A stretch of DNA of 64,000 bases, taken from positions 1 through 64,000 of the forward strand of contig NZ_JSWG01000001.1 of the NCBI RefSeq assembly GCF_000797465.1, read 5' to 3'. Source of the DNA: Psychroserpens jangbogonensis (GTDB lineage: Bacteria > Bacteroidota > Bacteroidia > Flavobacteriales > Flavobacteriaceae). Shown here piece after piece: positions 2,988 to 12,121 of the stretch. How positions within the stretch are numbered: position 1 is the first letter of the stretch; every line of letters begins with the position of its first letter. The notes beneath the pieces are model-generated. The model was not told the origin of the DNA and made no database searches. It saw only the letters and a program-made list of their open reading frames with translations. Both the position numbers and the translations under genes were made by a program.

Positions 2988-3332
2988 ATGCCAAGATCAG
3001 TAAATTCAGTAGCGAAGAGAGCCAGAAGAAAAAAGGTTCTTAAGCAAGCAAAAGGTTACTTCGGAAGACGTAAAAACGTTTGGACAGTAGCAAAAAACGC
3101 GGTTGACAAAGCGATGCAATATTCGTATAGAGACCGTAGAGTAAAAAAGAGAACATTCCGTTCATTATGGATTATGCGTATTAACGCAGGAGCTAGACAA
3201 CATGGAATGAGCTATTCAAGATTTATGGGGAAACTTAAAGCTAACAATATCGAATTGAACCGTAAAGTTCTTGCCGATTTAGCAATGAATAATCCAGAAG
3301 CTTTTGAAGCAATAGTAAACAAAGTAAAGTAA
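2988..3332 (+). CDS. rplT: 50S ribosomal protein L20
   Basis: Binds 23S rRNA early in large-subunit assembly. It has 114 residues with the typical start [20 protein letters not shown] and the [20 protein letters not shown] and [12 protein letters not shown] blocks of the family. It is the last gene of the translation block, and a strong hairpin terminator follows 36 bases after its stop. Confidence 0.98.
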
Positions 3333-3368
3333 GGCAAACGCCTAAATAATAACAACAATTCGCTTATA

Positions 3369-3400
3369 AAAACCGATTCAGAAATGAATCGGTTTTTTTT
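3369..3400. terminator. rplT terminator, usable on both strands
   Basis: Perfect 10-bp stem AACCGATTCA (3371-3380), GAAA loop, TGAATCGGTT (3385-3394), then eight T residues. An A-run on the other side makes it usable for the leftward gene at 3493-3759 too. A near-identical copy occurs at 11017-11046. Confidence 0.9.
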
Positions 3401-3490
3401 ATGAAATAAGCCAATATAAAAGTATTGAACTTTAATGCATAAATAGCACTTCAGTTTTTAAAGACTTAATTTTATTATAAATTAGTTCAA

Positions 3491-3730
3491 TTTCACTTTG
3501 GAATGATACTCGAACCTTCTTTTGGAATGATACGTGCTCCTTCTTTAGGGATGATCCTTGCTCCTTCTTTAGGAATGATCCTTGCTCCTTCTTTAGGAAT
3601 GATCCTTGCTCCTTCTTTAGGAATGATCCTTGCTCCTTCTTTTGGAATGATACGTGCACCTTCTTTTGGAATGATCCTTGCTCCTTCTTTTGGAATGATC
3701 CTCGCGCCTTCCTTAGGAAGGATAGAGTCA
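3491..3730 (-). repeat. 24-bp in-frame tandem repeat, about ten units
   Basis: About ten contiguous 24-bp units lie inside the coding sequence at 3493-3759. Units at 3563, 3587 and 3611 are identical, and the others fall into two sub-types (TTTAGG...ATCCTTG and TTTTGG...ATACGTG), with more divergent units at each end. Because 24 is a multiple of 3, unit gain or loss keeps the reading frame. Adjoining units have no spacers between them, so this is not a CRISPR array. Confidence 0.95.
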
Positions 3731-3759
3731 CCTTTCTTGTCGTTAGATTCTTTAGTCAT
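3493..3759 (-). CDS. Small GARIIPKE-repeat protein
   Basis: Unrecognised 88-residue protein. After a short hydrophilic start (MTKESNDKKGDSILPKE) it consists of eight perfect GARIIPKE repeats and ends GSSIIPK. There is no signal peptide or membrane segment. Three frames are open across the repeat; this frame is preferred because it has an ATG start with a sensible N-terminus. It also shares its motif with the membrane protein at 6455-7084 (GSRIIPKAE, GDTIPKAS), which sits in the divergent operon. The regular Gly, paired Ile, Pro-Lys pattern suggests a multivalent binding platform or a repeated protease target; both are guesses. It could still be a non-coding satellite. Confidence 0.6.
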   Translation of the reverse strand: MTKESNDKKGDSILPKEGARIIPKEGARIIPKEGARIIPKEGARIIPKEGARIIPKEGARIIPKEGARIIPKEGARIIPKEGSSIIPK

Positions 3760-4178
3760 TATATTGTTGTTAGGATTAATTAATTACTATATTAAGAAAA
3801 ATATGTAATTTTAGCAAGCTATTAACTCTTTAAATATCAATCCTCCAGACGAAATTAATTATTAATGACCTTAGAACATCATAAAAAAGAAGTATTTAAA
3901 ATGCTTTCGATTTATATGATTTCAAGCTAGGTACTTCTTCCAGTTTTAGATCTTATTACCTACTTCAATTAATACTACTTTCATTCCTATCCTTTGCTAT
4001 TATTCTTTTCGGAAATTTCTCGACAAGCCTTGTTCTATATGCAAGACATAGCTAGCGAATACAATTGTAGTCAAATTCTAAAAATAAAATCTCTTTCTTT
4101 GAATATAGGCGTTGACATTCATTAAAAAGTAATAAAGATTCTCAAAACAATAGATATAATTATTGTATTTTAGCTTGA
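3760..4178. other. Gene-free divergent intergenic region
   Basis: These 419 bases separate the divergent repeat-protein gene and the cyclase operon and should hold both promoters. No convincing TTTG/TAnnTTTG pair was found. TATTTTAG at 4166-4173 is a weak -10-like match just before the cyclase start. An 8-bp inverted repeat (AAGAAGTA at 3887-3894, TACTTCTT at 3932-3939) could form a long-loop hairpin. No protein-coding stretch with a recognisable family was seen. Confidence 0.5.
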
Positions 4179-6458
4179 ATGTCTAAGACCCGCCGACTAG
4201 CTGCCATTATGTTTACCGATATCGTCGGTTTTACATCTTTAATGGGTAGTGATGAACAAAAAACCTTAGAAATATTAGAAAAGAACAGAAAGATCCATAA
4301 ACCAATTATTAATGAGTTTAATGGTACCTGGATAAAAGAGCTTGGCGATGGAGTTATTGCCAGCTTTAACACAGTGTCTGATGCCGTAAATGCAGCAATT
4401 AAAATACAGGAGACTTGCAATGCTGCTGCCGATTATAGCTTACGCATTGGTATCCATCAAGCAGAAGTAGTTTTTGAAGATGATGACGTATTTGGAGATG
4501 GTGTTAATATCGCGGCTCGAATTCAAACTGCTGCAAAACCGGGCTGTATTTTTATTTCTGAATCTGTAAATAATAATATTTCCAACAAAAATCACATTAA
4601 GACTCATTTTGTAAAAGAGGAGAAACTGAAAAATGTAACTCAGCCAATGAGATTATATCAAGTGTTGTTCCAAGGGAGTGAGAAGATAATACCCGAAATA
4701 GATATTGTAAAAAAAACACCAAAGAAACGCTTAATTTATTTTGTTGCATTGAGTTTGATTTTAGCAGCAATATTTATGATTCTAAAGCTAACGAATGCTT
4801 TTTCTTTAGAAAAGATAGAAACCAATAACAAAATTGCTGTTTTAGAATTTGAAAATACTACATCAAATGAAAAACTAAATAACGTTGGCAAAATAGCATC
4901 CAATTGGATTATTCATGGTATTACTGAAAATCAACTAGGTCAGGTCATTTCGCCAAAATTAGTAAATGATTATACAACAATTTTAAAATCAGAAACTGGG
5001 TCAACAGACCTCAATAATTTATTAAAAAATTATTTTAAACCAGATAAAGTAATTGTAGGTGTATATTATGAAGAAAATGGTAACCTTTTACTTCAGTGCT
5101 CAATTAAAGATGGTTTAATTGATGAAACACTGATATCATTTGAAACCATATCATGTGATCCAAATTCGCCATTAGATTGTGCAGAAAAATTAAAGCAAGA
5201 AATTTTAGGTTATTTATCTACAGTAGATAAACAAGATAATCAAGGTTATATTGAAGACAAAGATAAGCAAACTGTTACTTCCTATTTTGAGGAAACACCT
5301 CCTAGCTATGAAGCTTATCAGTACCTTTTAAATGCACTCGAAAACAATAGTAATCCAAAACTTTATTTAGAATTATTAAATAAATCCATTGCAACTGATG
5401 CTAGTTTTTTTGAACCAAAAATGCATAAGATAGCTTTTTATTATAATCAAGGAGAGTTTAAAATTTCAGACTCATTAAGGCTTTTGATTGATGTTAAATC
5501 AAAATTAAATGATAGGCAAGAAAGCATTATGTTGTTTTATGAGTCCATATTAAAAGGAAAAAATGATAAAGCATATAGGGCTCACAAAGAAGAGTACAAA
5601 AAAGCTTATAAAGACATGTCTACTAATATGACTACCATGACAATTGCATTGCAATATGTCAATAGACCTGAAGACATTGGAGTCATATTTAATGAAATTC
5701 CAATGGAAGATTTAATTTTAGAAGATTGTTCTAATTGTGGTTTTAGGTACTATTTAAAAAGCCTAGCTGATGTTGAACTAGGAAACTATGATGAAGTCAT
5801 TAAAACACTTCTACCAATTACTAACGTTATTGAAGCTAATTATTTAAAACGTCCGTTAATAAGTGCATTTGTGAAATCGGGAAAATATTCTGAATTAGAA
5901 AAATATCTGTCTGATTATAAACTTACGGCACCTACTTCTGATATAGATTATCTAATGTCCTTTACTGGAATTCAATTCATAAATTCTAATCAAACTGAAG
6001 AAGCCAACACGTATTTCAATAAAATAATTTCAAGAAAAAATACAACCTTAAATTCCGCTGATTTGGCTCAAGCCTATTATTTTAAAAATGATTATGCAAA
6101 TGCTCTAGAACAGTATAAATCATTGCATGACACCAACGAAAACAACATTGACTATATTGTTCGTATAGCTATAAGTTTCTTTAGAAATGGTAATTCTGAA
6201 GAAGCTAAAACCTATATTGATAAATTAATTAATTTAAAAACAGATTTTCAATTTGGTGCCATTGATTATGGTCTATCTCAGTATTATGCTTCAATCGGAG
6301 ATAATGACAAAGCTCTTCAATTACTTGAAAAAGCGGTTGCTCAAGGTTTTAATTTCACCCCAACAACATTTCAAAACGATCCTCATTTTAGAAATATAAA
6401 AGACAGCCCTGAATTTATTAATCGCATAATGAACTATTGGAAAAACAAAACATCATGA
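4179..6458 (+). CDS. Class III nucleotide cyclase with membrane segment and TPRs
   Basis: Predicted to make cAMP (or cGMP) from ATP (or GTP). The N-terminal class III catalytic domain (about 5-165) has both metal Asp residues (D14 in FTDIVGFTSL, D57 in LGDGVIASF). It also has the Lys typical of adenylate cyclases (K53) and the transition-state Asn/Arg pair (N110, R114 in GVNIAARIQ), so it looks active. One membrane helix follows (about 185-203), then a region beginning IAVLEFENTT that resembles TolB/FlgO N-terminal domains, then TPR-like helices to residue 759. With a single helix, the TPR part would lie outside the inner membrane, as a sensor. It is the first gene of the accessory operon; its stop overlaps the next start (ATGA). 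Confidence 0.9.
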   Translation: MSKTRRLAAIMFTDIVGFTSLMGSDEQKTLEILEKNRKIHKPIINEFNGTWIKELGDGVIASFNTVSDAVNAAIKIQETCNAAADYSLRIGIHQAEVVFEDDDVFGDGVNIAARIQTAAKPGCIFISESVNNNISNKNHIKTHFVKEEKLKNVTQPMRLYQVLFQGSEKIIPEIDIVKKTPKKRLIYFVALSLILAAIFMILKLTNAFSLEKIETNNKIAVLEFENTTSNEKLNNVGKIASNWIIHGITENQLGQVISPKLVNDYTTILKSETGSTDLNNLLKNYFKPDKVIVGVYYEENGNLLLQCSIKDGLIDETLISFETISCDPNSPLDCAEKLKQEILGYLSTVDKQDNQGYIEDKDKQTVTSYFEETPPSYEAYQYLLNALENNSNPKLYLELLNKSIATDASFFEPKMHKIAFYYNQGEFKISDSLRLLIDVKSKLNDRQESIMLFYESILKGKNDKAYRAHKEEYKKAYKDMSTNMTTMTIALQYVNRPEDIGVIFNEIPMEDLILEDCSNCGFRYYLKSLADVELGNYDEVIKTLLPITNVIEANYLKRPLISAFVKSGKYSELEKYLSDYKLTAPTSDIDYLMSFTGIQFINSNQTEEANTYFNKIISRKNTTLNSADLAQAYYFKNDYANALEQYKSLHDTNENNIDYIVRIAISFFRNGNSEEAKTYIDKLINLKTDFQFGAIDYGLSQYYASIGDNDKALQLLEKAVAQGFNFTPTTFQNDPHFRNIKDSPEFINRIMNYWKNKTS

Positions 6459-7084
6459 TGATATTTTTACAAGCTGCAGAAGCACCTGATACTATAGATC
6501 AATTGATAAAGCTAATTGAAGTAATAATTTGGCCATTAACTGTAGTTGGCGCTTTATTCCTTTATAGAAAAAATTTTAAACATATTTTATCTCGAGTGGG
6601 TAATTTTAAAATTGGACCAAACGGTTTAGAAATGACACTTTTAGAAAAAACTCTTGAAGAAGCTAAATCTATAATTCCATTTAGAAATCCAATGTTATCA
6701 GCAAATGAAGGAGAAGTCATAATGTCTAAAGATGGAAGTAGAATTATACCTAAGGCCGAAGGAGATACTATTCCTAAAGCCAGTCAAGATGAAACATTAT
6801 ATCAAACCAATCATGCTGATACTCCCCTTTTGGAGTTATTAGAGCTACAAGAAGCTATTAACAAAAAATTAAAAAGTGTCCTAGCTCAAAATGAGATCAT
6901 CAATACTGGCTCATCAAACTATTCCTTAACTAGTGATTTAGAAAACCATAAAATCATAAATAATCAAACTACAAATCAACTAAAAAAGTTGATTGAATTA
7001 ATGAATATTGGTTTAAATACACCCCAAATCACCTATGATCAAGTAATACAAATGAAAAAATTGTTTATTAATATTTCCATTTAA
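6455..7084 (+). CDS. One-pass membrane protein with IIPK repeat motif
   Basis: Unrecognised protein of 209 residues. The ATG at 6455 overlaps the cyclase stop by four bases, which favours it over a TTG at 6437 and suggests translational coupling. One membrane helix (about 22-37) is followed by a basic stretch (YRKNFKH), which places the C-terminal part in the cytoplasm. Residues about 86-110 form three degenerate units, EGEVIMSKD, GSRIIPKAE and GDTIPKASQ. These match the repeat of the divergent small protein at 3493-3759 (GARIIPKE, GDSILPKE). The rest is polar and predicted helical. Its place between a cyclase and a caspase-like protease suggests a membrane adaptor or protease substrate; neither is shown. 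Confidence 0.75.
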   Translation: MMIFLQAAEAPDTIDQLIKLIEVIIWPLTVVGALFLYRKNFKHILSRVGNFKIGPNGLEMTLLEKTLEEAKSIIPFRNPMLSANEGEVIMSKDGSRIIPKAEGDTIPKASQDETLYQTNHADTPLLELLELQEAINKKLKSVLAQNEIINTGSSNYSLTSDLENHKIINNQTTNQLKKLIELMNIGLNTPQITYDQVIQMKKLFINISI

Positions 7085-7094
7085 AACAAATCAA

Positions 7095-9326
7095 ATGAAT
7101 CAACTCGATAATGCATACGCTTTGATTATTGGTGTGGATAATGAACAAAAACAACCACAAGTTTTAAAAGATGCCATAGCAATTCGTGACATCCTTTCTG
7201 ATGAAGTTCATTGTGGATATAAGAAGGAGAATATTACACTTCTGCTGGATACAGAAGCTACTACTGAAAATATTATTGGAGCGATTGACAGTTTCATTGC
7301 TAAAATAGATGAAAATTCGTCATTCTTACTTTTTTATTCTGGACATGGAGGTTACTATGAAGGCCGCTCCTATTTATTGCCACATGGAGCTTCAAGTGAA
7401 AATTTAATTTTCGGTAAAGATTTAAGAATCAAACTAAATCAAATGAAATCAAAAAGAATGATTATTCTCTTTGATTGTTGTCATGCTGGCGGATTTTTTG
7501 ATGGTGAAGATAAAAAGCTAACGAGAAACAGTGGTAATCAAAATCCCAATAGTGTATCTCGTTCTTCAAATTTAAATGGTATAGCTCAAGACATAGACAA
7601 TGAACAAGGGATGGCAATAATTGCTTCTTCTCAAACAGATGAATTATCATGGGGAACACAAGGTGAATACAGCCTTTTTACGACTTGCCTTTTAGAAGCC
7701 CTTCAAGCAAAACATAAACATTTTTTTGCCGACGAATACATTAGAATGGTAGAAACCGTTAATTACGTTTTCACAAGAGTTCCAGAAATGATTAAATCAC
7801 TTAAGGAAATAAGTGATATCGTAAAAGATCAAACACCTTACGCTAATCTTCAAATGAATAATGACTTTATCATAAGTTATATTCCTAATCAATTTAAAGA
7901 GAAAATAGTAACTAATAAATTTAAAACTCCTCCAATAAACACAAACTCAGCAGAGCCTAAAGAGGCTAATTCTGTTGAATCGTGGGAAAGAGAAGAAGGC
8001 AACAATCTACTTCTTTTTATACATGGTTTTTCCGGTGAATCAAAAGGAACATTTGGGAATATCCCAGAATTATTGCAATCAGATTCTAACTTTGATGGTT
8101 GGGCAATGAAGCCTTTAGGTTATACTCATTTTGTGCAACCTGAATTAGGTAAAGATATTTGGGCAGCAATCTTAGATATTGATAAAATAGCTGGATATCT
8201 AAAAACATCTATAGCATATAAATTTAAAGACTATGATCGTATAGCAATTGTTGCACATAGTCTTGGAGGACTAGTAGCCCAAAAAGCGGTTCTTGGTTTA
8301 GATAAAGAAAGTAGAAATAGAATTTCTCATATTATATTATTTGGTACACCAAGTAATGGTATAGCTTCTGAATTACTTAGCAAACAATGGAATACGAAGT
8401 ACAGCGCAATGAGCAGTAATGGTGATTTTATAAAATCACTTCGTAATGAGTGGAAAAGCACATTTAATGATAAATATCCTTTTAAACTTAAAGTTGCGGC
8501 TTCTACTGATGATCAATATGTGTCGGTTGATTCTTGTCATGAACCATTTGAAAAAGAACATCGTGAATTTGTAAAAGGCAAGCATTTAATGATGGTGAAA
8601 CCTGAAGGCAAGAAAGATGATGCCTACTCTTTGATTTTAAACACATTAACAGGAAATAAGTTTTTTAATCAATATACTAATAAAGAAGAAATAAATTTAA
8701 TTCTTGGTAAATACGACGCGGTTGTAAATGAATTATTACCAAGAAAAGATGATTTGGATAAAAATGGTCTTACACGATTAATTTTTGCTCTTGAAGGTCT
8801 AGAACGTAATGACGAAATCTATAATATTCTCAATAATCATCCAATTGCTAAAGACAATACAGATTTAATGGGAATTATTGGTGGTAGACATAAACGTGAC
8901 TACCTTAAAACCTTTTTAGCTAAGTCTAGTAACTTATCAATAGAATACTATAGCAAGGCACTTAAATTATCTGTTGAAAATCAAGACTATCCTCAAATTT
9001 ACTACCATGCCATAAATTTGGCGTTTTTAAGTATTGTAACAGATCCTGAAGGCGGAGAAAGCAATATGATGAAATACGCCAAACAAGCACTTGAAGCCTC
9101 AGAACATTGTAGAGACAATGTATGGAAATATGCTACTGTAGCTGAAGCTAATATGTATATTGGCAATATGGAAAAAGCTCAAGAGTACTACATTAAAGCT
9201 TCAGAAAATGCACCAATTAGAGAAAAATTATCTATGCATACTAACGCTTATACAGGCTATGTCGCATTAACAAATATAGAAGATGACAAATTCACACAAT
9301 TTCTAAAAGCAAGATTATTAAGTTAA
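7095..9326 (+). CDS. Caspase-like protease fused to alpha/beta hydrolase and helical repeats
   Basis: Three-part, 743-residue protein without a signal peptide. Residues about 5-265 are a caspase/metacaspase (C14-type) domain with the His in FYSGHGG (H84) and Cys in FDCCHAGG (C129). Residues about 300-500 are an alpha/beta hydrolase with an oxyanion-type LLLFIHGFSG start and a nucleophile elbow AHSLGG (S389), of the lipase or PGAP1-like kind. Residues about 525-743 are TPR-like helices. The stretch IIGGRHKRDY...YYHAINLAFL recalls the TRAFs-binding-type region found in other bacterial conflict proteins. The gene starts 10 bases after the membrane protein. Caspase, TIR and cyclase genes together fit a regulated immune or cell-death system; substrates are unknown. 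Confidence 0.88.
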   Translation: MNQLDNAYALIIGVDNEQKQPQVLKDAIAIRDILSDEVHCGYKKENITLLLDTEATTENIIGAIDSFIAKIDENSSFLLFYSGHGGYYEGRSYLLPHGASSENLIFGKDLRIKLNQMKSKRMIILFDCCHAGGFFDGEDKKLTRNSGNQNPNSVSRSSNLNGIAQDIDNEQGMAIIASSQTDELSWGTQGEYSLFTTCLLEALQAKHKHFFADEYIRMVETVNYVFTRVPEMIKSLKEISDIVKDQTPYANLQMNNDFIISYIPNQFKEKIVTNKFKTPPINTNSAEPKEANSVESWEREEGNNLLLFIHGFSGESKGTFGNIPELLQSDSNFDGWAMKPLGYTHFVQPELGKDIWAAILDIDKIAGYLKTSIAYKFKDYDRIAIVAHSLGGLVAQKAVLGLDKESRNRISHIILFGTPSNGIASELLSKQWNTKYSAMSSNGDFIKSLRNEWKSTFNDKYPFKLKVAASTDDQYVSVDSCHEPFEKEHREFVKGKHLMMVKPEGKKDDAYSLILNTLTGNKFFNQYTNKEEINLILGKYDAVVNELLPRKDDLDKNGLTRLIFALEGLERNDEIYNILNNHPIAKDNTDLMGIIGGRHKRDYLKTFLAKSSNLSIEYYSKALKLSVENQDYPQIYYHAINLAFLSIVTDPEGGESNMMKYAKQALEASEHCRDNVWKYATVAEANMYIGNMEKAQEYYIKASENAPIREKLSMHTNAYTGYVALTNIEDDKFTQFLKARLLS

Positions 9327-9434
9327 TAATACGGAATCTCGGAAATAGCATTTATAAAAAAGTTACGGCTTACTAAAATAATCAGTATATTAACATTCCC
9401 TTAATTGATCCAAACCAACTAAAAACTAAATAAT

Positions 9435-10301
9435 ATGAGTACAGAAACTATTTTTGTAAGCTACTCTAGTGACGATAGACCATTTGCATTAGGGTTAGTA
9501 AAAGAGCTACAAAGTTTAGGGGCAAACGTATGGATAGATCAATTGGGTATTGGTTTAGGTGAAAACTGGGATAATGCTATTGAAGAAGCACTAGAGAAAT
9601 CGGAAACTTTTATGCTTATTTTATCACCTACATCTGTTGAATCACAAAATGTTCAAGATGAAGTATCAATTGCTATAAACACAAAAAAGAAACTTGTCCC
9701 CATATTAATTAAAGAATGCGAATTACCAATGCGATTGCAGCGCAGACAATATGCTGATTTAACTAACGATCCTGATAAAGCCATTATTGACATTTTAACT
9801 TTTCTTGGTTTAAAAGAAAAGGCTTCAACTAGCTTAAACAAAATATTGGCACTAATTGGAGTTACTGAAGCTCCAAAAAAAGTTATTCAAAAAGTAACAG
9901 AAGAATTAACGGGTAAAAAAATTAAACAAGAAGTTAACGCACAAGATTTACTAGTTTCAGATGCTGAAATTGAACAGGCTATTAATATGCATAAAAAAGG
10001 GATTAAAAAAAACTGGCAAATGATAGGGATAGTTGCCTTTATTAGTGTAGCCTTAGTATCTGTGTTGTTTTTTAAAACTGATCTTTTAACAATAGATTTA
10101 AAACTAGCTATACCAGCATGTTTGTCACTAAATTTATTATCAATTAAACCATATAGTAGTATAAAAAAGGAAGTTAGAAATATTGATCTTATAGAGCTAC
10201 TCAAACTTAAACGAGAACGGCTTACACGTGTTATTAATAATTTAAATGCTACTGAAATCGAGAAGTTTAATAATGAATTTTATAATTATATTAAAATTTA
10301 A
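9435..10301 (+). CDS. TIR-domain membrane protein
   Basis: The N-terminal TIR domain (about 4-125) shows the family landmarks: FVSYSSDD (7-14), VWID (32-35), the acidic GENWDNAIEEAL segment (42-53), ILSPTSVES (62-70) and the following Glu (E76). Bacterial TIR domains often break down NAD+ or make signals from it. A Glu in the 42-53 segment could be the catalytic one, but this cannot be assigned by eye. After a linker, two membrane helices (about 195-213 and 220-236) and a charged tail follow. A 108-base gap from the caspase gene could hold a separate promoter, though none was recognised; the next gene starts 11 bases after its stop. Confidence 0.9.
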   Translation: MSTETIFVSYSSDDRPFALGLVKELQSLGANVWIDQLGIGLGENWDNAIEEALEKSETFMLILSPTSVESQNVQDEVSIAINTKKKLVPILIKECELPMRLQRRQYADLTNDPDKAIIDILTFLGLKEKASTSLNKILALIGVTEAPKKVIQKVTEELTGKKIKQEVNAQDLLVSDAEIEQAINMHKKGIKKNWQMIGIVAFISVALVSVLFFKTDLLTIDLKLAIPACLSLNLLSIKPYSSIKKEVRNIDLIELLKLKRERLTRVINNLNATEIEKFNNEFYNYIKI

Positions 10302-10312
10302 TACCAGTATAT

Positions 10313-11008
10313 ATGAAGCGCATTGATGATAAAATTAAAGAAATTGAAAAAAAAGACAAAACAAGTAGATGGCTTTATTATGTAATTATTGCAGGAGTAA
10401 TTGGGTTTATATATTTTGCCAGTACTACAAGAAAGGAAATTGGTCTTAAAAATGTTGAAATTTCTGATCTTAAAATAACGCAATCAAAAATATACAAAGA
10501 TTTAGACTCAGTTAATAATCAAACACAAAAATTATATAATGACTTAAAAAATAGTCTTCGTCCTGAAGAATATTGGAAGCACATTAAAAATGACAACACA
10601 GTAGAAGGCTATATTGGTTATATAACCAATGATTGGGGAATTAACAAAGAACCGTATATTCCAAATGCAATCGCAGCCGTTAAATCAAATAATGCTATTG
10701 GTCTTAATGGTTGGTTATTTGTCGGAAGTAAAAAGAATGACGGCATTTATAAAAGTAGAACAGATATTATTGAGGTTATCTATAGAAAAGGATCTAATGG
10801 AAATATTGCAACTTCAGAACCACAAGTTGGAGATATTGTAAGATTAAAGAATACAAGAAATCGTATTACGTACAAACGTAAAGATAAAGTAGGAAGGCGA
10901 AATCATTCTAACGATCAAGGCTTTAGAAATAAAACAAAAGCAGTGGTTGTAGATGTCTATAAAGAAACTGGAAATACTAATTTTAATGTCAAAATTTGGT
11001 ATTACTAA
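10313..11008 (+). CDS. One-pass membrane protein, unknown C-terminal domain
   Basis: Unrecognised, 231 residues. A charged N-terminus is followed by a membrane helix (about 19-36) and a likely coiled coil (about 40-75). A C-terminal domain follows whose end, with VGDIVRLKNTRNRI and KAVVVDVYKETGN, looks like a small beta-rich, SH3-like fold. It lies 11 bases after the TIR gene and ends at the copy of the rplT terminator, so it is the last gene of the accessory set. The topology suggests a bitopic sensor or anchor partner for the TIR protein, which is inference from position only. Confidence 0.7.
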   Translation: MKRIDDKIKEIEKKDKTSRWLYYVIIAGVIGFIYFASTTRKEIGLKNVEISDLKITQSKIYKDLDSVNNQTQKLYNDLKNSLRPEEYWKHIKNDNTVEGYIGYITNDWGINKEPYIPNAIAAVKSNNAIGLNGWLFVGSKKNDGIYKSRTDIIEVIYRKGSNGNIATSEPQVGDIVRLKNTRNRITYKRKDKVGRRNHSNDQGFRNKTKAVVVDVYKETGNTNFNVKIWYY

Positions 11009-11016
11009 TTCATAAG

Positions 11017-11046
11017 AAAACCGATTCAGAAATGAATTGGTTTTTT
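11017..11046 (+). terminator. Second copy of the rplT-type terminator
   Basis: The 30 bases here match 3369-3398 at all but one position (C at 3390, T here at 11038). The stem AACCGATTCA/TGAATTGGTT keeps pairing in rightward RNA through one G-U pair and is followed by a T-run. In leftward RNA the same change gives a C-A mismatch. It should therefore serve the gene ending at 11008. Its T-run overlaps the stop codon of the leftward cyclase gene. Confidence 0.8.
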
Positions 11047-12121
11047 ATTTTGAAGTAACTCTATATACGTTCAGTTTTTCTTGTTTCCCTTTAAGAATAA
11101 AATCTTCCTTTATCTCTTCAGAATTAAATAGATCACTATTTACATGATCTAATATAGTTTCAGAAATTAAAAGTGAGGCATTGTAATCGTTACACAAGCT
11201 CTGAATTCTTGATGCCGAATTTATAACGTCGCCATGAAATGCTAATTCTTTTTTTACCGTACCTACTTCAGCAACCATAATTTTTCCAGAATGAACTCCA
11301 GCTTTAAATTCAGGCATAAAACCGTATTCCGCTAAATAATAATCAGTCCTTGTGAGTAATGTTTTCTTAAAAGCAAAAAACAAATTAATACAATTATTGT
11401 TTTTAAACCCCTTTTTATTGGTCCAACTAATTACAGCTTCGTCACCTACATATTGATATACTTCTGCATCATGTTGTCGAAGTACATTATTTAAATCTTT
11501 AAAACAATCCTGAATAAATCTACTATACGTTTCATGACCAAGTTGCTCAGCAATTTTAGTTGAATCTTTAAGGTCTACAAACATTAGAATACGTTCTTCT
11601 TCTTTTGGTCTTTTATACTTACCTAAGAGCATATTCATAAACACACCACGTCCGAATTTATCATTGGCGATTCTTATAAATGAGAACACAATAGATGCAG
11701 TAATGAAATACACAACAGTATTCCAAAAAAATGGATCTTTTCTCCACCAACCTCTTTCATTTGGTAAATCAATACCAACTTGTTTTTCAATTGAAAACGA
11801 TAGAAAGCTTAAAACAATAATAATAAGTATGAAATAGATTAAGGACTTGAGTAAAATATTAACACCAAGTATCAACTTTTTACTCACATACAAATCAAAT
11901 AAATATTCGATTATAGCGTAAAAGACCCCTATTATTAAGCCTAGTATGGTTGCATAAGCAAAGAATGCGCGAATTGGGATTTGTATATCATCTTGGGTAT
12001 AATTCCCTAATTCAACTGAAAGTCCGTTATATCTTATAGTATTAAATAGTACAAAAGCAAATACCCAAAATACTATTGAACCGAACAGTAATTCAAAAAA
12101 TGCTCTTACTTTATCAATCAT
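11045..12121 (-). CDS. Membrane-bound class III nucleotide cyclase
   Basis: 358 residues with four predicted membrane helices (about 13-29, 49-70, 85-107, 132-151) and a C-terminal class III cyclase domain from about 178. Both metal Asp residues are present (D183 in FVDLKDST, D227 in YVGDEAVISW), as are the catalytic Asn and Arg (N301, R305 in VINSASRIQ). The base-selecting position that holds Lys in typical adenylate cyclases is Gln (Q223), so the substrate is uncertain. It converges on the accessory operon and precedes no obvious partner; 10 bases separate it from the upstream gene on the same strand. Unlike the cyclase at 4179 it has no TPRs. Confidence 0.88.
   Translation of the reverse strand: MIDKVRAFFELLFGSIVFWVFAFVLFNTIRYNGLSVELGNYTQDDIQIPIRAFFAYATILGLIIGVFYAIIEYLFDLYVSKKLILGVNILLKSLIYFILIIIVLSFLSFSIEKQVGIDLPNERGWWRKDPFFWNTVVYFITASIVFSFIRIANDKFGRGVFMNMLLGKYKRPKEEERILMFVDLKDSTKIAEQLGHETYSRFIQDCFKDLNNVLRQHDAEVYQYVGDEAVISWTNKKGFKNNNCINLFFAFKKTLLTRTDYYLAEYGFMPEFKAGVHSGKIMVAEVGTVKKELAFHGDVINSASRIQSLCNDYNASLLISETILDHVNSDLFNSEEIKEDFILKGKQEKLNVYRVTSK

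Follow-up and report, generated by a model that had tools for sequence, protein, structure and literature searches.

A tandem-repeat microprotein encoded beside a membrane sensor and caspase-TPR-S gene set of Flavobacteriaceae: a possible decoy substrate

Results

The locus and its genes

The window, a stretch of 64,000 nucleotides from Psychroserpens jangbogonensis, contains a run of genes (3493-11008) inserted as a discrete block between rplT and a cyclase gene resident at the site (Table 1). The sequence-only reading had listed six genes in this run, and their ORFs and domains were confirmed. Pfam assigned Guanylate_cyc (3e-13) and TPRs to the product of 4179-6458, TIR_2 (5e-28) to that of 9435-10301, and Peptidase_C14 (2e-21), an alpha/beta hydrolase and TPR-S (PF20308, 3e-12, above the cut-off) to the caspase protein, hereafter CASP. 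The helical repeats previously noted at the C-terminus of the caspase-hydrolase fusion are therefore present and can be named as members of the known TPR-S family. The ORF of the IIPK membrane protein opens with TTG at 6437, and comparison with locus L030 makes an ATG start near 6455/6458 the likelier one.

Table 1. Features of the run, with positions in the window
Feature	Position	Strand	Evidence
REP, divergent repeat microprotein, 88 aa, (GARIIPKE)n	3493..3759	-	ORF call
REP promoter-like element	3786..3818	-	Conserved across loci; window sequence
Start of ancestral 2-TM sensor N-terminus, decayed, with internal stop codon	3865..3949	+	blastn to L030
Membrane sensor: cyclase (aa 8-161), TM, TolB-like/TPR region	4179..6458	+	Pfam, alignment
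IIPK/IWP membrane protein: N-terminal TM, disordered linker, C-terminal four-helix domain	6437..7084	+	
Linker with REP-like sites SKDGSRIIPKAEGDTIPK	6725..6778	+	Low pLDDT region
CASP: caspase, alpha/beta hydrolase, TPR-S	7095..9326	+	Pfam, alignment, model
TIR-TM protein, Glu76 nearly invariant	9435..10301	+	Pfam, alignment
TM, coiled coil, C-terminal domain (SH3b-like by eye), one-pass protein	10313..11008	+	

Distribution and insertion site

The core of the system, a membrane TPR sensor with a caspase(-hydrolase)-TPR-S protein, was found at 40 distinct Flavobacteriaceae loci, counted after removal of duplicates. A sensor lies near the caspase in all 40, with intervening genes in a few and a truncated sensor in L038. 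The set thus recurs in other genera and is not a chance arrangement of the window. The full caspase-hydrolase-TPR-S fusion is present in about 13 of the 199 Flavobacteriaceae genera sampled, and the companion sensor allowed it to be traced further within the family, for example in Lacinutrix, Gaetbulibacter, Winogradskyella, Lutibacter, Altibacter, Ulvibacter and Muriicola. A class-wide search of 395 genomes added only distant partial sensor matches in 2 genomes of another family, and a contig search with the window's IIPK protein alone as query gave no matches.

Within the genus of the window, the IIPK protein was found in 2 of 23 genomes and the stretch between rplT and the following conserved gene measures 0.5 to 11 kb. 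The site in G020, among the shortest rplT sites read, holds only a cyclase resembling that encoded at 11045-12121 of the window. This length variation, together with the cyclase-only site, indicates that the system was inserted in a variable site between rplT and the cyclase. The gene at 11045-12121 (minus strand) encodes a class III cyclase with N-terminal TM segments and is found at the rplT site in most congeners; it occurs with or without the system, and the copy in G001 has an internal stop. It was rejected as a part of the system, because it stands at the same site in congeners lacking the system. A phage origin was also rejected, since the sensor has no relative in the viral contigs scanned. 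One locus (L034, 3950-13645) has two tandem systems, each with its own distinct repeat gene.

The repeat microprotein REP

The divergent GARIIPKE gene had been pointed out by the sequence-only reading and proved real; what had gone unnoticed is that a lineage-specific counterpart exists at every caspase-bearing locus (40/40, those of L038 and L045 being taken from six-frame translations). At sensor-only loci with enough flank, REP was found in 0 of 2 (L068 and L069; Fisher p 0.001), after exclusion of L064, L073 and L085 for contig ends or interruption. REP is a small divergent gene adjoining the sensor, or the IIPK protein gene in L035, L054 and L058, and REP and sensor starts are mostly 101-136 bp apart. 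At most loci a conserved promoter-like element precedes REP, with its TTG about 19 nt ahead of YACTAATATAGT and a distance of about 36-43 nt to the REP ATG.

The repeat in the window is a 24-bp minisatellite of 8.5 copies (3515-3719). REPs are 22-296 residues long, usually consist of tandem repeats and have no hydrophobic signal sequence; of their 3040 residues, 7 are aromatic or Cys. Repeat period and sequence vary by lineage, tracking the caspase tree, and L074 and L088, which share 89% identity over sensor and caspase, have about nine and about two REP units, respectively. The idea that the repeat is non-coding DNA was rejected, because the periods are multiples of three and the changes fall at third positions. 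Differences between repeat units numbered 65, 48 and 570 at the first, second and third codon position, with 544 synonymous versus 53 non-synonymous codons, indicating that REP is a translated protein under selection. No published description of the repeat gene was found in literature searches, and this repeat partner appears to be undescribed so far.

The sensor and its cyclase

All other sensors in the alignment start with a 2-TM segment, and a cyclase takes its place in the window only. When the window was compared with L030 by blastn, coverage was confined to 3496-3949 and 4799-6478; the sensor part common to L030 begins at 4799, and the decayed sensor start at 3865-3949 lies 105 bp from the REP ATG, which is the spacing of other loci. 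Because the other aligned sensors have the 2-TM start and the ancestral remnant is found upstream, the cyclase on the window's sensor is a private and probably recent graft. According to the sequence-only reading, sensing in the whole system would fall to the cyclase. The window's sensor certainly carries a fused class III cyclase domain, but the absence of this domain from the homologous sensors aligned and the ancestral start left behind upstream make such a role highly improbable. The TolB-like/TPR domains of the sensor are predicted to be periplasmic, and the alignment revealed conserved cysteines. At L068, an extra sensor-like gene (3293-5548), kin to the window's cyclase-TPR protein, lies near a sensor that has no caspase or REP.

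Caspase, hydrolase and the motif in REP

CASP has an H84/C129 dyad, D26, S82 and D127 as S1-pocket candidates, and S389 as hydrolase serine. H84, C129, D26 and D127 are invariant in 19 homologues, and the catalytic residues named from the window alone (caspase dyad, hydrolase Ser and TIR Glu) are for the most part conserved among homologues. The best PDB match of the CASP model was MALT1 (E 1e-8); D26 and D127 fall at acid positions of the Lys/Arg pocket, which are two of the S1 positions of MALT1/TbMCA2. The hydrolase is similar to lipases and to the Legionella phospholipase PlaB. The caspase of one clade (L043-L046, L059, L072, L075 and L082) has no hydrolase, and the IIPK protein is absent there as well. 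REP is retained in this clade, so that its partner is expected in the sensor/caspase core.

The REP motif can be written as hydrophobic-x-(Pro/Ser)-Lys. The pattern [IVLM]x[PS][KR], which was derived from the same REPs on which its enrichment was tested, occurred in 27 of 34 non-redundant REPs versus 7.2 in shuffles. At the position before Lys/Arg, Pro was enriched 2.7-fold and Ser 1.6-fold, and the C-terminal residue was Lys/Arg in 18 of the 35 REPs (p 2e-5). Repeats with Lys before Pro or with no fitting Lys were found in L032, L034a/b, L039 and L042. MALT1 tolerates Ser, Ala and Pro at P2 and favours Leu at P4 (PMC6207715), AtMCA-IIf prefers Pro (also Tyr and Phe) at P2 and Ile/Val at P4 (PMC10896300), and metacaspases cut after Lys or Arg alike (PMC10896300). 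As far as sequence can tell, the REP motif fits a metacaspase/paracaspase cut site, and the motif itself suggests that this caspase may prefer Lys over Arg.

The motif in the membrane partner

Residues 87-126 of the IIPK protein, where pLDDT is mostly below 50, form a predicted disordered linker, which in the clade of the window carries REP-like repeats matched to the REP of the same locus. REP and linker share IIPK in the window and L030, DGSSIIPK in L051 and L052, and DGGGINPK in L050 and L086; the I/N switch is concordant in 6 of 6 loci, and the sister loci L030 and L050 differ. In permutations that ignore phylogeny, REP matched the IIPK protein of its own locus better than those of others (p 5e-5, and p 0.005 within the window clade), and in the short-caspase clade it matched its own sensor loop (p 0.002). 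In that short-caspase clade, which has neither IIPK protein nor hydrolase, the TM2-TM3 sensor loop carries ASSKSG, ASAKSA, VTSK or ATSK.

For IIPK proteins without repeats, the locus-specific match to REP was not significant (p 0.39, again by permutation ignoring phylogeny). Lys is the single well-conserved linker position in these proteins and is found in 17 of 19 over the whole alignment. No motif-bearing partner was found for the KSK clade (L033, L037, L074, L079, L081 and L088). The REPs of these six loci are of the KSK/TSK type and have no matching linker; the sensor loop there holds a conserved KKPLLDxxGxPxPGK stretch instead. Gene conversion between REP and linker repeats could be an alternative explanation for the identical repeats in the six-locus clade; it does not easily explain the sensor-loop case. 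A fold search with the C-terminal domain of the IIPK protein gave weak HEPN/HepT-like matches only (E above 0.4). What these comparisons show is a motif common to REP and a membrane partner.

TIR, accessory genes and neighbours

The TIR gene is present in the window and in about two thirds of the caspase-bearing loci and missing from about one third; L033, L036, L037, L043-L045, L074, L079 and L081 retain the sensor, the caspase and REP, and no gene of the set matched TIR there. The presence of TIR, of the TM-coiled-coil protein and of a small PGDYG-like gene varies between loci. By eye, TIR and the TM-coiled-coil protein are apparently fused in some loci (L055 and L041), suggesting that they act jointly. 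The PGDYG-like gene, which belongs to the phage family phrog_419, lies between caspase and TIR in many loci (for example L030, 12965-13189, and L104, 626-874) and is missing from the window, and an orphan copy is found at the rplT site of G016.

A defence-island context was not consistent across loci, conflict-type neighbours being found at two of them. At L074 (14614-18424) an nSTAND1 NTPase and a TIR protein adjoin the system, and its neighbour at L079 (15388-20967) is a protein of 1859 aa that combines hydrolase-like regions with CHAT and TPR-S. In L035, the genes that separate the sensor from the IIPK protein were considered as restriction-modification, a reading rejected because they are gluconate metabolism genes.

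Discussion

REP as a possible decoy of the caspase

Our preferred reading, which we put forward tentatively as quite possible rather than probable, is a membrane-linked suicide or conflict circuit in which REP serves as a tandem decoy (pseudo-)substrate of the caspase. A perturbation would be detected by the TolB-like/TPR domains of the sensor together with the TIR-TM and TM-coiled-coil proteins. TIR, where present, would produce an NAD-derived signal for TPR-S to read, and the activated caspase would cut after Lys in the cytosolic IIPK linker, or in the TM2-TM3 loop of the sensor, with the hydrolase attacking membrane lipid. REP, as a cytosolic and disordered tandem array of the caspase cut site, would occupy the caspase, so that only strong activation could outrun the decoy and repeat copy number would set the threshold.

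We favour a decoy because REP accompanies the caspase at every locus and is missing from both evaluable sensor-only loci, because its motif agrees with MALT1/AtMCA-IIf preferences and with the pocket acids of CASP, because it matches its own IIPK protein or sensor loop down to the I/N switch, and because of the conserved linker Lys and the Lys/Arg ends of REPs. Weighing against it are the KSK clade without a partner, the repeats with unfitting Lys and the lack of a significant match for repeat-less IIPK proteins; the absence of TIR from about a third of loci weighs against the circuit. What the sequence shows directly is the gene set, a coding and conserved REP, the motif match, and the pocket and catalytic residues; cleavage, the signal and killing we infer, as we do the role in defence, for which we look to composition and distribution. 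The more specific proposal, that a cut-site array, encoded apart from a bacterial paracaspase and transcribed divergently, controls this protease, co-evolves in sequence and copy number with a membrane substrate and acts as a tunable death buffer, is possible and in our view doubtful. To our knowledge, a cut-site-array decoy co-evolving with the true substrate is found in no known system.

The same motif could also remain uncut, with REP as a multivalent docking scaffold whose motif binds TPR-S or another domain and so clusters caspases or recruits them to the membrane protein. Tandem motif arrays suit such scaffolds, the motif recurs in a membrane partner, some repeats have Lys-Pro or no fitting Lys, and the motif stands at the end of many REPs, a placement also known from C-terminal TPR ligands; nevertheless, the agreement with paracaspase P4-P1 preferences and the conserved S1 pocket for basic residues lead us to regard a scaffold as rather unlikely. 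Still less credible is REP as a precursor that the caspase cuts into numerous copies of one short peptide, which would then act, inside the cell or after release, as a signal or toxin. Such a role would suit identical repeats whose units, like many REP C-termini, end in Lys, but REP has no hydrophobic signal sequence, the peptide sequence varies between lineages, and some REPs (L056, L083 and L088) hold just one or two motif copies.

A separate question, compatible with any mechanism of REP, is whether the set is a flavobacterial death programme that serves envelope stress or development instead of a defence system. The predicted periplasmic sensor with its conserved cysteines, the inconsistent defence-island context and the lack of sensor relatives in the viral contigs scanned point in this direction. 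Against it stand the patchy, insertion-like distribution, the combination of TIR, caspase and TPR-S typical of conflict systems, the fast-changing REP and the phage-family small gene in many loci, and we consider such a programme unlikely.

How bacterial caspases are restrained in healthy cells is largely open, and a separate string of cut sites, if the decoy reading is true, would be a simple and evolvable threshold device. The lineage-specific REP sequence names a predicted cut site for each protease, and a family of tandem-repeat microproteins that is easily taken for low-complexity sequence gains a defined genetic partner.

Comparison with known systems

TPR-S (Tetratricopeptide Repeats-Sensor, PF20308) is said to have been described in conflict modules by Burroughs and Aravind in 2020. 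As in those modules, a caspase-type protease is fused to TPR-S here, often with a TIR gene; the present system differs in adding the membrane TPR sensor, the IIPK/IWP protein and REP, and in that TIR is optional. The cyclase domain of the window has weak PycC matches, as in Pycsar, whereas no cyclic-nucleotide effector is among the Pfam/PADLOC matches of the set and the cyclase is private to the window. Craspase (TPR-CHAT; PMC9729208) likewise joins TPRs to a protease of the caspase fold in the setting of bacterial conflict; here the protease is C14 and not CHAT, no CRISPR gene was seen in the set, and no Csx30 counterpart was identified. With the MALT1 paracaspase and metacaspases CASP has in common the fold, the His/Cys dyad, the acidic S1 positions and the predicted motif preference, but it is bacterial, fused to hydrolase and TPR-S, and has no Ig or death domain by Pfam. 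In Type IV Thoeris, as PMC12847820 cites Rousset et al. 2025, TIR-made N7-cADPR activates a caspase-like protease. TIR and a caspase-like protease likewise share one operon in the window and about two thirds of loci, whereas TIR is not obligatory here and the hydrolase, TPR-S, membrane sensor and REP set the system apart. In its gene composition, the set resembles the known TIR/caspase/TPR-S conflict systems, and we place it among them as a variant.
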